Below are positions 1 through 52,904 of a stretch of DNA of 52,904 bases, one piece after another. The DNA lies in NCBI GenBank assembly GCA_944323335.1, contig CALUSB010000011.1, positions 1 through 52,904 of the forward strand. Direction: 5' to 3'. The translations under genes and the position numbers were made by a program. Numbering within the stretch: position 1 is the first letter of the stretch; each line of letters starts with the position of its first letter. The notes below the pieces were generated by a model, which made no database searches, was not told the origin of the DNA, and was given only the letters and a program-made list of their open reading frames with translations. The stretch is from Candidatus Gastranaerophilales bacterium (lineage in GTDB: Bacteria > Cyanobacteriota > Vampirovibrionia > Gastranaerophilales > Gastranaerophilaceae).

Positions 1-72
1 GCGTCTGATGCGATTCGAACGCATGACCTATCCCTTAAAAGGGGAGTGCTCTACCTGCTGAGCTACAGACGC
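1..72 (-). tRNA. tRNA-Lys (anticodon TTT)
   Basis: Read on the minus strand, the 72 bases fold as a full cloverleaf. The acceptor stem GCGTCTG pairs with CAGACGC, the D arm is GCTC...GAGC, the anticodon loop is CTTTTAA (anticodon TTT, lysine), and the T arm ATGCG-TTCGAAT-CGCAT is canonical. Base pair 27-43 of the anticodon stem is a C/T mismatch. The discriminator base and CCA end would lie just outside the window, so whether CCA is encoded cannot be seen. Confidence 0.95.
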
Positions 73-142
73 AAATTGTATTAAATTTTCAGTTTTGTCT
101 TCGCTCAGCAGGTAGCTTGTGCGGACTTCGCCGCTTGCCATC

Positions 143-172
143 GCCCTGCTCTGTCAATTGAGCTACAGACGC
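143..172 (-). pseudogene. 5' half of a second, decayed tRNA gene
   Basis: On the minus strand this segment repeats the acceptor 5' strand and D arm of a tRNA (GCGTCTGTAGCTC, then a different D loop, then GAGCAG). The bases GAGCTACAGACGCAAAT at 160-176 also occur as a direct repeat at 60-76. No anticodon arm or T arm follows. Instead there is a GC-richer stretch (about 101-150) with a short hairpin (GCGG 121-124 / CCGC 131-134) flanked by AGCAGG 107-112 / CCTGCT 145-150. It looks like a duplicated tRNA whose 3' half was replaced by an inserted or rearranged sequence. Confidence 0.55.
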
Positions 173-324
173 AAATCATATTGCTTATTTAATATAACAA
201 GAACATATTTTCCCGTCAAATACTTTTTTAAAAAAATTATCACCCATATGTCCTTAGCCTTTCGGGTTTTTTAAAAAAACAAAATTCGGATAATATTTAA
301 ACTATACTCAAGAAAGGGAAAACT

Positions 325-954
325 ATGAAAAAAACTTTACTTCTGCTTGCAGCAACAGTATTTGTATGCCATAGCGCGCTAGCAGCCCCATGCAGCGTTC
401 CATGTGACACAAACAAAGTAAAAGCACCTTGCGAAAAAGGTTGCAAACAGTACAATCCGCCTAAAGGATGCGAAGAGAAAAAATGCGAAAAACCTTGCAA
501 GGAAAAAGCTTGCGAAGATAGCATTAAAGAGGACAACAAATGCTTCTTTGACAATGAATTTGCAAAAATGAAAAAAGTTCTCTGCCTAAGCCCTCAACAA
601 GACAGCGCAGTTGATTGCATTTATGATAAATACAAAAATCAAATGCAAATTCTCCATGACCAAGCAAAAACAAGACAAAATAAACTTTGTCAGATGATTA
701 ACCAATGCGCTTCTAATTCTGAAATAAGAGAACAAAAAGAAGAATTAAAAGAAATTAGAAAAGACGCAAAAGAACAGTACAAGTGCTTCTCAAAAGAAAT
801 AAAAGCACAACTTTGCAAAGACCAAATCAAATGCTTTAACAGATTTAACCGCGCAGAGAAAAGAAAAATGAAAAAACTTGTAAAATACTGCATGGTTCCA
901 CATTTCCCATGCGATTGCGAATGTACTGTTCAAAAAGCTTGCGGCTGCAACTAA
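325..954 (+). CDS. Cysteine-rich exported protein, function unknown
   Basis: A 209-residue protein with a clear Sec signal peptide (MKK, hydrophobic core, cleavage expected after SALA near residue 20). The mature part has about 22 cysteines. They are clustered at the N terminus as PC..PC / GCxxxxC / CxxxC repeats and at the extreme C terminus as a CDCEC...CGC tail. The middle (about 75-170) is a charged Lys/Glu/Gln-rich helical region with an LSPQQ segment. That segment vaguely recalls Spy/CpxP-type periplasmic helical proteins, but I cannot assign it to that family. The start follows a good AAAGGG ribosome site 10 nt upstream. The gene ends at a bidirectional terminator shared with valS. A periplasmic or surface location with many disulfides or bound metal is inference only. 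Confidence 0.8.
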   Translation: MKKTLLLLAATVFVCHSALAAPCSVPCDTNKVKAPCEKGCKQYNPPKGCEEKKCEKPCKEKACEDSIKEDNKCFFDNEFAKMKKVLCLSPQQDSAVDCIYDKYKNQMQILHDQAKTRQNKLCQMINQCASNSEIREQKEELKEIRKDAKEQYKCFSKEIKAQLCKDQIKCFNRFNRAEKRKMKKLVKYCMVPHFPCDCECTVQKACGCN

Positions 955-49119: not shown

Positions 49120-50922
49120 ATGAAAAAAATCGAAAATATAAGAAACTTTAGCATAATAGCCCACATTGACCACGGCAAATCTACTCTTGCAGACAGATTG
49201 CTTGAACTTACCGGTACAATAGCTCAACGTGATATGCAAAATCAGCTGCTTGATACTATGGATATTGAGCGCGAGCGCGGTATTACAATCAAACTAAACG
49301 CCGCAAAAATGAACTACAGGGCGGATGATGGGAAAAATTACATTTTAAATCTTATCGACACCCCGGGGCACGTTGATTTTTCTTATGAAGTTTCTCGCTC
49401 GCTTGCAGCTTGCGAGGGTGCGCTTTTGATAGTGGATGCAACACAGGGCGTTGAGGCTCAGACCCTTGCAAATGTGTATCTTGCAATGGAACAAAATCTT
49501 GAAATTATCCCTATAATAAATAAAATCGACCTGCCCTCGGCAGATGTCGAGAGGGTAAAACAAGAAATAGAAGACGTTCTGGGAATTGACGCGTCAATGG
49601 CAATTCCTGTGAGCGCTAAAGAGGGAACAGGGATAAAAGAAGTCCTTGAGGCCGTTGTAGCACATATTCCACCGCCTGATGATACATCAGATAAGCCCCT
49701 AAGGGCGCTTGTTTTTGACAGTGCATATGACCAATACTTAGGAACCGTTTGCTTTTTTAAAGTAATAGACGGGTCAATCAAACTTGGCGATAAAATTAAG
49801 TTTATGGCAACAGGCAAGGAGTTTGAAGTTGTTGAGCTTGGATTTTTAAACCCCAACAGAGTACAGGTAGAAGAGCTTAAAACAGGCGAGGTTGGCTATT
49901 TTGCAGGTTCAATAAAAGAAATAACCCGCTTTGTGGGGGATACTATAACGCACGCTCAAAACCCCGCAAAAGAACCGCTTGAAGGGTATAAAGAAGCAAA
50001 ACCCATGGTGTTTTCAGGACTTTATCCCGTTGATAATGACCAATATCACGACTTAAAAGAGGCTCTTGAGAAGCTTAAACTCAACGACAGTTCTATAACT
50101 TTTGAACCTGAAACCTCATCGGCCCTGGGGTTTGGCTTTAGGTGCGGATTTTTAGGTATGCTGCATATGGAAATAGCTCAAGAACGTCTTGAGCGCGAGT
50201 ATGACTTATCACTCATTACAACTGCGCCAAGCGTAATTTACAAAGTCTATAAGACTGACGGCACAATGGTTGAGATAGATAACCCGACGAACCTGCCCGC
50301 ACCGCAGTATCGTGACTACATCGAAGAACCTTATGTCAGAGTAAATATTTTTACTCCGAACGATTTTGTAGGCTCGCTTATGGAACTTTGCCAAGGAAAG
50401 CGCGGAGATTTTATAAATATGCATTATTTGGATAAAACCCGTGTCAATCTTGAATATCACATACCGTTAAGTGAAGTTATCACAGATTTTTACGACCAGC
50501 TAAAATCCCGCTCCAAAGGATATGCCAGCCTTGATTACGATTTTTACGCATACAAGCGCTCTGACCTTGTAAAAATGGATATTTTACTTAGCGGAGAAGT
50601 AGTTGACGCGTTATCTGTCATCTGTCACAAAGATAGTGCTTATAATATAGGTCAAAAGCTTGCAACAAAATTAAAAGAAATTATACCAAGGCAGATGTTT
50701 GAGGTAGCAATTCAAGCTGCAATAGGCGGTAGAATAATTGCAAGGACAACTATTAAAGCTATGCGCAAAAACGTGCTTGATAAATGCTACGGCGGCGATA
50801 TTACGCGTAAAAGAAAACTTCTTGAAAAGCAAAAGCGCGGTAAAAAACGTATGAAATCGGTGGGTAGAGTAGATATCCCGCAAGAGGCATTTATGGCGGT
50901 TTTGAGTCTGAATGAAGAGTAA
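49120..50922 (+). CDS. lepA: Elongation factor 4 (LepA GTPase)
   Basis: A 600-residue ribosome-associated GTPase. G motifs: AHIDHGKST (G1), the [10 protein letters not shown] switch I region, DTPGHVDF (G3) and NKIDLP (G4). The EF-G-like domains III and V are followed by the LepA-specific C-terminal domain ([21 protein letters not shown]). It acts on stalled or mistranslocated ribosomes. A TATAAT box is 11 nt before the ATG, giving a very short leader at most. Confidence 0.96.
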
Positions 50923-51027: not shown

Positions 51028-52904
51028 ATGATTAAAAAATTTGCTTGGCGCAAGAGCGCCGTGCGTCCTTATGGCGTACAAAAGGGGTTTACTTTGGCTG
51101 AATTATTAACAGCTGTGCTTGTAATATCGGTTATTATGGTTGCACTAGCTCCTGTTATAACAAAAAGAATGAAAGAAAATATTACAGTGCAAACTGATAA
51201 CAGAAGAGGACTTGAAATATACACTAACCCCGGGACTTACACATTTGATGTTCCAATAGGTATTAATACATTATTTATCCAAGGCTCGGGAGGAGCAGGT
51301 GGCGGTGCCGGTTCAACGTATGTTGAAAAAGATTTATTAGTTACATCAAGTACCACTTGGACAGTACCAAATGGAGTTAATGAAATTAAATTTACAATCA
51401 CTGGCGCAGGAGGCGGCGGAGGTGGTGCAAATGGAAGTAATAATACTAAACATCCGGATACCAGCCCCAAGGTTTACAATAATTCATGTAGCTCGGATGA
51501 ATTCACTGCAATCAGAGCTTCAACGGAAGAATATGACTTGTGTATAACAAAAGAAAACAAAGGGGGCTCGTCTAAGCCAATCAATGAATCTTGCACAAAC
51601 ACATCTTGCTGCTGGACTTCCCCTAATGCCCTTTGCTATGGAGGAGGTTGCAACAGAAAAGTATGCACCTACAAAGCTGCATATGAATTTTGTGCGTTCT
51701 ACAAAGCATATGCTGTAGGTGCAGAGACAATAGGGGTATACACATACAGATTGGCAAAAGAGCAAGAATGGAAAAAAATACAAAAATATCTAGGCCCATG
51801 GAATAGAGATGTTGCATATCAAAATAGTTTACAACTTTGCACACATAATGCATTTAACTCGGGACATGAGGCATCAAATGTTGCACAATGTAGTGGGGTA
51901 TTGGGCTGTGGAGGATTAGGATGCGGTCCGTCAAATTATTGGGTTAATGCAGACTTTGATGGAAATTTTAAACGATGGGCATATGACAACAAGGCAGCTC
52001 AATATATTGCAAATGAATCTGACGGGCTAAGGGCATACTCTGTCCGTTGCGTTCGCTCGCTAAACAGATATAACCGCTACTCAGGAGCTGGTGGCTCATC
52101 AGGAGCTATTATGGAAAAGACTATTAATGTTCTGCCTAAAGATGTGTTTGAAATAACAATAGGACAGGGAGGAGCAGGCGGTGCTTCAAAAACAAAAGGT
52201 TCCCAGGGAGGAACAACAAAGATAGTACACAAAAGAAAAAATATTGAACTTGGAACATACTATGTAAAAGGAGGATTAGGAGGAAACCCTGCAACAACAA
52301 GTGCCCATGGTAAAGCCTATACAAACGGAACGGCAAGTAATAACACAACACCACAAGGCACATGTTATTCAAGAAACAGAAAAGATACTACAGATAGTTT
52401 TTCAGGAGGCAATACATCATGTACTACTCTATCGTATAGCGGAGAAGCTGGTAGTTCAACAAAAGGAGGTAATGGAGGAAGAGTTAAAAATACAGGGACT
52501 ATTAATGATGGAGAATATAGTTCGGGAGGGTATCTGTATATAGATAGTAACAGAACCGCTAATCAAAGAGCAACAAATACCGAGATAAGTTATGCAAAAG
52601 GACAAAATGCAAGTATTTACGGTTTTGGAGGAGGCGGAGGATTAACTCCCGCTTGGGCTACTTCTACTTCTCACTTCTATAGCGGAGGCAAGGGAGCATC
52701 AGGTAGAGTTGATATAGTGTATAAAGTAGCACTACCCGGTGGCGGTGGAGGTTCAGCATCAAGAGTTGCAGGAGTTAATGGTAATAATAAAATGTATGAG
52801 ATTAAGTATAAGGTAGCTGAGGGAGACAGAATTGTATTTAAAGTAGGTTCAGGAGGAACAGGAGGAGTAGAAGGACAAGACGGACTTAACGGTTCAGCTA
52901 CCGT
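51028..52904 (+). CDS. Giant prepilin-like protein, glycine-rich, with lectin/FGE-like insert (partial)
   Basis: The frame is open from ATG 51028 to the window end: 625 codons plus two bases, with no stop. Residues 1-20 are a basic leader, then the type IV prepilin motif Gly20|FTLAELL with Glu25 (position 5 of the mature protein) and a hydrophobic helix (about 21-43). Next come two 'aromatic-VP.G...' strands leading into glycine runs (YTFDVPIG at about 71-78 and TWTVPNGVNEIKFTITGAGG at about 111-130), like glycine-rich adhesin/tail-fibre domains. Residues about 154-343 form a Cys-rich insert with 14 cysteines, RLAKEQEW near 241 and SVRCVR at 338-343, resembling DUF1566/FGE-sulfatase-type C-type-lectin folds. 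From 352 on, glycine-rich sequence resumes. It is probably a surface pilin or pseudopilin displaying a binding module. The C terminus is missing. Confidence 0.75.
   Translation, partial: MIKKFAWRKSAVRPYGVQKGFTLAELLTAVLVISVIMVALAPVITKRMKENITVQTDNRRGLEIYTNPGTYTFDVPIGINTLFIQGSGGAGGGAGSTYVEKDLLVTSSTTWTVPNGVNEIKFTITGAGGGGGGANGSNNTKHPDTSPKVYNNSCSSDEFTAIRASTEEYDLCITKENKGGSSKPINESCTNTSCCWTSPNALCYGGGCNRKVCTYKAAYEFCAFYKAYAVGAETIGVYTYRLAKEQEWKKIQKYLGPWNRDVAYQNSLQLCTHNAFNSGHEASNVAQCSGVLGCGGLGCGPSNYWVNADFDGNFKRWAYDNKAAQYIANESDGLRAYSVRCVRSLNRYNRYSGAGGSSGAIMEKTINVLPKDVFEITIGQGGAGGASKTKGSQGGTTKIVHKRKNIELGTYYVKGGLGGNPATTSAHGKAYTNGTASNNTTPQGTCYSRNRKDTTDSFSGGNTSCTTLSYSGEAGSSTKGGNGGRVKNTGTINDGEYSSGGYLYIDSNRTANQRATNTEISYAKGQNASIYGFGGGGGLTPAWATSTSHFYSGGKGASGRVDIVYKVALPGGGGGSASRVAGVNGNNKMYEIKYKVAEGDRIVFKVGSGGTGGVEGQDGLNGSAT

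Follow-up and report, generated by a model that had tools for sequence, protein, structure and literature searches.

A prepilin-type protein with a predicted lectin-like head in Gastranaerophilales, probably one of a dispersed family of head-exchanging adhesins

Introduction

The stretch of DNA analysed here (the window; 52,904 nucleotides of contig CALUSB010000011.1, assembly GCA_944323335.1, Candidatus Gastranaerophilales bacterium) ends inside a reading frame that a first-pass annotation, made from the letters of the window, described as a giant prepilin-anchored, glycine-rich protein carrying a lectin- or FGE-like module with 14 cysteines. What kind of protein joins the N terminus of a pilin to such segments, and does it stand alone in its genome? 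Our best explanation is that the window gene is probably one of about 15 dispersed paralogues for modular prepilin-type adhesins, whose heads are exchanged between loci and which together make up a variable repertoire. The paralogues and the exchange are visible only from the rest of the genome and were missed by the first-pass annotation.

Results

The frame opens with an ATG at 51028, about 10 bases downstream of a ribosome-binding-site-like GGAGAAA, and remains intact on the forward strand, with no stop up to 52902, where it is cut by the end of contig C11 of the window genome (G000); the end of C11 is also the end of the window. Coordinates, frame and open end are therefore as first read. 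The word "giant" stands for about 840 aa: the frame is open beyond 625 residues, and its full size is put at that length by a sister gene on contig C32, which is 73% identical overall and 97-98% identical in nucleotides across the final 40 codons present in the window copy, and which continues to a stop (834 aa counted from the ATG). The upstream neighbour is an ORF that we take to encode an elongation factor 4 (LepA)-like protein. The features of the region are as follows.

49120..50922, +: upstream neighbour ORF, marker of the syntenic locus in related species (ORF; syntenic upstream regions)
51028..51087, +: class III (prepilin) leader MIKKFAWRKSAVRPYGVQKG, predicted cleavage after G20 (TIGR02532; N_methyl genome scan)
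51088..51165, +: hydrophobic N-terminal helix FTLAELLTAVLVISVIMVALAPVITK, residues 21-46 (sequence; AlphaFold2 helix 23-46, low confidence)
51205..51315, +: predicted outer glycine-rich (TG-like) domain, first strands and first glycine run, residues 60-96 (kept in 66 family members)
51316..51429, +: predicted inner glycine-rich domain, start, residues 97-134 (pLDDT mostly >90; Pam3 match 79-569)
51430..52065, +: hypervariable 14-Cys head, predicted C-type-lectin-like and related to Lcl_C (DUF1566), residues 135-346 (structure; profile link; paralogue aa identity 13-37%)
51838..52050, +: segment of the head corresponding to the region varied by retroelements in congeners, residues 271-341 (cassette profile A4)
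52066..52737, +: predicted inner glycine-rich domain, remainder, residues 347-570 (Gly_rich_2; PHROG 863; Pam3/ALK structure match)
52738..52902, +: predicted outer glycine-rich domain, beginning of the second half, truncated at the contig end (paralogue L009 goes on to a stop as Gly_rich_2)

The leader MIKKFAWRKSAVRPYGVQKG and the ensuing FTLAELLTAVLVISVIMVALAPVITKRM fit the prepilin rule: FTLAELL stands directly after the cleavage point, G-1, F+1 and E+5 are present, and the basic leader and the hydrophobic stretch are those of class III. The type IV prepilin start was confirmed by NCBIfam TIGR02532 (21.8 bits; cut-off 16.3); Pfam N_methyl scored 20.4 bits on the window protein, slightly below its cut-off of 21.2, and 25.5 bits, above the cut-off, in the genome-wide scan. 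A pilin N-terminal motif and an extra module that does not belong specifically to pilus biology are two features that the protein has in common with modular type IV pilins. We modelled the window ORF with AlphaFold2 using 58 family sequences (mean pLDDT 80; >90 over most of 101-565), together with the complete 834-aa sister (mean pLDDT 84). In neither model is a pilin globular module visible after the helix; the helix, of about 24 residues, runs straight into the scaffold, and residues 45-64 are of low confidence.

The pilus or type II secretion (T2SS) genes that the first-pass annotation proposed to look for are present in G000, with secretin, PilB/GspE and PilC/GspF genes at C5 and a prepilin peptidase gene at C23, and they fit models of the T2SS as well as those of the type IV pilus. 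Since a pilin globular domain is lacking in the models, the protein may remain in the inner membrane or be exported through a T2SS and not sit in a pilus. That the same protein is a pseudopilin-anchored or secreted protein of T2SS type, never incorporated in a pilus, is a possible though less probable reading; the direct passage from helix to scaffold and the double fit of the machinery genes speak for it, whereas large modules grafted on pilin N-termini are reported to be widespread and likely polymerised into pili, as for PilB of Streptococcus sanguinis (PMC8179133).

The glycine-rich segments were correctly named, with Gly_rich_2 (PF21722) scoring 51.7 bits over residues 350-565 (cut-off 24.3), but they do not appear to be loose filler. 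The tail-fibre family PHROG 863 (tail) matches residues 350-563 at E 4.7e-13, and 122 viral models match at E up to 0.001, consistent with a likeness to phage tail fibres. When residues 79-570 of the predicted model were compared by VIA-align, phage tail-fibre tips ranked first: the receptor-binding tip of Pam3 (7ypx) at Z 19.7 (217 aligned, rmsd 4.6) and Pam3 7yfw at Z 18.4 (198 aligned, rmsd 3.0), followed by Bxb1 at Z 14.9 and the TG domains of ALK/LTK at Z about 9. The Pam3 match recurred with the model of the complete paralogue (Z 19.9, 197 aligned, rmsd 2.8). Plain Foldseek with the whole window model gave no match at E up to 0.001, its top rows being ALK/LTK, and a sequence search of the PDB gave a chance-level match only; S16 gp38 is absent among the structure matches listed, which excludes nothing. 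As judged from these predicted models, the scaffold is folded like the tip of a phage tail fibre. In the complete paralogue, matches that span 55..834 further suggest an order of nesting, in which the lectin-like head would lie within the inner glycine-rich domain and this within the outer one. Among viral contigs no relative was found, and there is no sign of phages carrying the gene.

Two other proteins of G000 are of related construction. One (L022:3223-5673, on C40) is a prepilin protein of about 817 aa that has five Gly_rich_2 stretches but lacks a head match, and it may be a headless scaffold; the other (L023:7545-7907, on C9) is a short prepilin-type protein of 121 codons that includes a Phage Tail Collar domain and is thus a further fusion of phage-tail and prepilin parts.

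The search for paralogues with the same leader, also proposed at first pass, yielded 15 genes with the start and architecture of the window gene, dispersed over the 1.67 Mb of G000; this number argues that the architecture is not due to chance. Six copies are complete, with open frames of 766-860 codons, and the remaining ones, the window copy included, are truncated where their contigs stop. Of the 98 contig ends in G000, at least 14 fall inside family genes, because the copies have long near-identical stretches in common. All the genomes used are metagenome-type assemblies that break inside family genes, and their repertoires are incomplete. Within the genus, matches were found in 15 of the 15 genomes searched, and 14-15 core copies were collected in each of G000, G011, G008 and G003; outside it, the complete architecture occurs in G187, of a sister genus. 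One family copy of G011 (L070, on C13) lies in two frames (325 and 268 codons) and is either a disrupted copy or an assembly error. Our literature search, which covered open-access papers, found no account of this prepilin-scaffold-head family in the Gastranaerophilales group.

From the window genome alone the genus might be thought to be without retroelements; this view was wrong, as most congeners have a reverse transcriptase, several of them close to contig ends. In G002 and G007, a reverse transcriptase of the type found in diversity-generating retroelements (DGRs) adjoins homologous prepilin-scaffold-head genes. The G002 enzyme has the motif GLPIGNLTSQ, and no specific DGR model was among the NCBIfam matches of the reverse transcriptases. 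Compared with the G002 template (L162:3758-3964), the neighbouring prepilin gene, with its variable region at L162:5177-5371, is changed at 20 of 60 adenines versus 2 of 147 other bases (p 1.8e-10), and a gene on another contig (L170:1275-1481) at 25 of 60 versus 7 of 147 (p 3.6e-10). This pattern indicates that G002 diversifies the homologous head by a DGR. The adenine bias between the G007 template and variable regions is weaker than in G002, and we leave G007 out as proof. Cassette profile A4 matches the window head at G000:C11:51835-52056.

In G003, a reverse transcriptase gene (C1, 337035-338216) and a prepilin-scaffold-head gene (338362-340832, minus strand) lie beside 29 start-less cassettes of about 260-280 bases each (G003:C1:341244-349770, L160:3245-11771). 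Over 215 nt, the variable part of the target gene is 98.6% identical to its best cassette, as against 74.8% for the next best; a one-base frameshift lies just 3' of the matching segment. Both base differences from the best cassette fall at cassette adenines, but since there are only two of them, one in the shared end repeat, the comparison does not separate retrohoming from gene conversion.

How the window family varies is best seen by comparing paralogues and related species. Within G000, the first 60 or so mature residues are 86-97% identical in amino acids between paralogues, the heads 13-37% (per 20-residue block) and the C flanks 38-78%, some pairs of the latter being 98-100% identical in nucleotides. 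Copies occupy syntenic places in G000 and in two related species, G011 and G008, where the upstream kilobases are mostly >90% identical (range 69-99%). Most heads at the same syntenic locus are 21-43% identical in amino acids, the mean being 0.34 at syntenic versus 0.31 at non-syntenic loci, and the two best cross-species head matches (0.93 and 0.90 aa identity) are at different loci. At G000:C7/G011:C10, each on a single contig, the upstream sequence is 97-100% identical in nucleotides and the C flank mostly 92-98% up to about codon 780, whereas the head between them is 35-72% identical; the head alone differs, and the head of G011:C10 is the one found at G000:C22. At the window locus, the head of the G008 counterpart is 36% identical, and the nearest G008 head (60%) is at another locus.

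Synonymous divergence separates the parts in the same way: dS is about 1.5 or more between heads at the same locus, 0.14-0.47 in the flanks of the clearest G000/G011 pairs, and 0.13-0.28 between heads common to different loci (dN/dS about 0.22). Saturation in the heads beside low values in the flanks argues that whole heads were exchanged and not mutated in place, and on this sequence evidence we take an old module, kept under purifying selection, to have replaced the resident head, and do not read the pattern as in-place hypermutation. Exchange is not universal, since three loci keep related heads (61-71% aa) in at least two species, and it was caught directly only twice. The C flanks are also highly divergent at some syntenic loci (G000:C12 versus G011, G000:C23 versus G008), which indicates that flanks recombine too. 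Homologous recombination in the conserved flanks would be the simplest route for the exchange, and DNA uptake is possible given the ComEC of G000. Silent, start-less cassettes were not found in G000, G011 or G008, and the window species appears to rely on recombination for changing its heads.

Three other accounts of the variation were weighed. In-place diversification by a DGR in the window species too, the reverse transcriptase having been lost from the assembly, is suggested by the reverse transcriptases beside homologous genes in G002 and G007, by the adenine-specific change in G002, and by the proximity of several congener enzymes to contig ends. We consider it unlikely: there is no reverse transcriptase candidate in G000, whose stated completeness is 99.78%, none was scored in G011, and no template-like cassette was found in G000. 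The divergence spans the whole head of about 200 residues and saturates synonymous sites, whereas the retroelement acts on adenines in a region of about 70 codons only, and the 3' end of the window head differs from the conserved end DNA of congener cassettes.

It is very unlikely that the moved heads are assembly chimeras, in which reads of different copies or strains were joined through repeated flanks. Contigs do break in this family, and exact runs shared between copies reach 327 bases in G008; at the loci of the two moved heads, however, the longest exact run common to them is just 38-50 bases in G000 and 15-24 in G011, which makes such joining improbable, one replaced head stands within single contigs and is flanked there by conserved sequence, and the two assemblies are separate. 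There is hardly more than a slight chance that this is an ordinary old paralogue family, with heads that diverged under weak constraint after ancient duplication and were never exchanged. The three loci with recognisably related heads would suit it, but most syntenic heads are no more alike than random pairs between flanks that are mostly >90% identical, two nearly identical heads are found at different loci, dS contrasts between head and flanks, and head cysteines and core motifs are kept.

These considerations leave head exchange as the preferred reading, and the nature of the exchanged head can be described from the window copy and its relatives. The insert holds 14 cysteines (154, 172, 189, 194, 195, 203, 208, 213, 222, 271, 288, 294, 299 and 341) and ends in SVRCVR, just as the first-pass annotation had it; two further cysteines of the window protein are at 446 and 465. 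Across copies the heads have 10 to 16 cysteines, in most an even number, and core motifs persist, so that the heads probably stay folded. In the predicted model, the head matches the C-terminal domain (CTD) of Bdellovibrio Bd2740 (Z 10.1, 105 aligned, rmsd 2.8), that of Legionella Lcl (Z 9.7, 114 aligned, rmsd 3.6) and snake-venom lectin-like proteins (Z about 9.5), with TvpA at 7.7. The model thus gives the head a C-type-lectin-like fold, so the lectin half of the earlier "lectin/FGE-like" label is the better one, and CarF and EgtB, of the FGE/sulfoxide synthase fold, match more weakly (Z 6-8). That the insert is an enzyme of that fold and not a binding head is scarcely credible, for although CarF and EgtB do match, the binding domains match more closely (Z 9.5-10.1) and hypervariability is hard to square with an active site. 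The proposed check against DUF1566 gave a divided answer: Pfam Lcl_C has no direct match to the window protein up to E 1, but a profile of the head picks up sister-genus proteins (E 1e-17 to 1e-55), and two of these score above the cut-off of Lcl_C (40.7 versus 34.9 bits), linking the head to the Lcl_C/DUF1566 family through intermediate sequences. None of the three outcomes that the first-pass annotation named as contrary to it was seen, namely a frameshift or stop shortly past the window, no lectin or FGE fold, and no machinery genes.

The sister genus g21 (L144, L145, L146, L147, L150, L151) has prepilin-started proteins with the same head on other stalks, among them tandem head pairs and cysteine-rich stalks that match an ephrin-receptor-like Pfam family. 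Several sister-genus head copies (G132, G068, G149, G176, G187) contain an in-frame TAA or TAG, one per match; these copies are either pseudogenes or silent copies.

Discussion

In the mechanism that we propose, the prepilin peptidase would process the window protein, a machine like the type IV pilus or T2SS would mount or export it, and the target of the head would be a ligand carried by host mucus, by other microbes or by food particles. Heads would be swapped when the conserved flanks undergo homologous recombination, so that the binding repertoire keeps changing. That the cell may display the product as a binding protein whose head changes is suggested by three analogies: a large modular pilin of S. 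sanguinis is established as an adhesin (PMC8179133), the Legionella Lcl-CTD binds glycosaminoglycans (PMC11162425), and Bdellovibrio Bd2740 forms the tip of a fibre linked to predation (PMC10769870).

Each of three components was known separately: modular pilins, glycine-rich tips of phage type, and variable heads with a lectin fold. The window family combines them in one protein, and the combined architecture is multiplied to about 15 loci in a gut genome of 1.7 Mb, with heads changing places between loci. The exchange of heads looks like a means of changing what the cell can stick to. If this is true, non-photosynthetic relatives of cyanobacteria in the gut put resources into an adhesin repertoire that is rapidly renewed, and a logic resembling antigenic variation operates in a commensal. 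A natural comparison is also available within the genus, where the same domain is varied in three ways, by recombination only (G000, G011), by a retroelement (G002), and by a retroelement with a silent array (G003), and the order and interplay of these mechanisms could accordingly be tested by strain sequencing. We speculate, as a tentative and rather doubtful extension, that the genus has a two-stage system, in which the retroelement hypermutates part of the head, silent cassettes store the variants (29 in G003) and recombination spreads heads over some 15 constant display genes; the window species would have dropped the retroelement and live on recombination alone.

Among known systems, the modular type IV pilins, of which 264 architectures have been listed (PMC8179133), are close in plan: PilB and PilC of S. 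sanguinis and the window protein all have a class III leader and an N-terminal helix with a large grafted module. The window protein differs in having no visible pilin globular module, a phage-fibre-like scaffold and about 15 paralogues with exchanged heads. The scaffold recalls phage tail-fibre tips, namely Pam3 gp24 (PMC9608196) and T2-type/S16 gp38 (PMC12892980), in which constant glycine-rich parts frame hypervariable parts as in the window family; the Pam3 paper describes a conserved glycine-rich stem and a hypervariable tip, and notes the likeness of the fibre to ALK and S16 gp38 (PMC9608196). Unlike these tips, the window protein is anchored by a bacterial prepilin helix, and its variable part is a whole C-type-lectin-like domain as predicted, not loops. 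The predicted fold of the head is shared with Lcl-CTD and the Bd2740 tip; however, Lcl-CTD has no disulfides (PMC11162425), whereas the heads of the window family hold 10-16 cysteines, and Bd2740 sits on a trimeric fibre.

With regard to the mode of variation, DGR targets with C-type-lectin folds (Mtd, TvpA and AvpA; PMC5006420, PMC6642488) resemble the congeners, which mutate a homologous head by means of a template, a variable region and a DGR-type reverse transcriptase, whereas in the window species no reverse transcriptase was found and whole heads are replaced. Silent-cassette conversion at vlsE and pilE (PMC2632889, PMC11499132) is resembled by the 29 start-less cassettes of G003 and their near-identical match to the target gene; it differs in that the G003 array adjoins a reverse transcriptase, and no silent cassette was found in the window species. 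The shufflon PilV adhesins of IncI plasmids (PMC9045228) are likewise prepilin-type adhesins whose distal part is changed by recombination, but in place of an inversion array the window family has dispersed loci, each of them a full gene.
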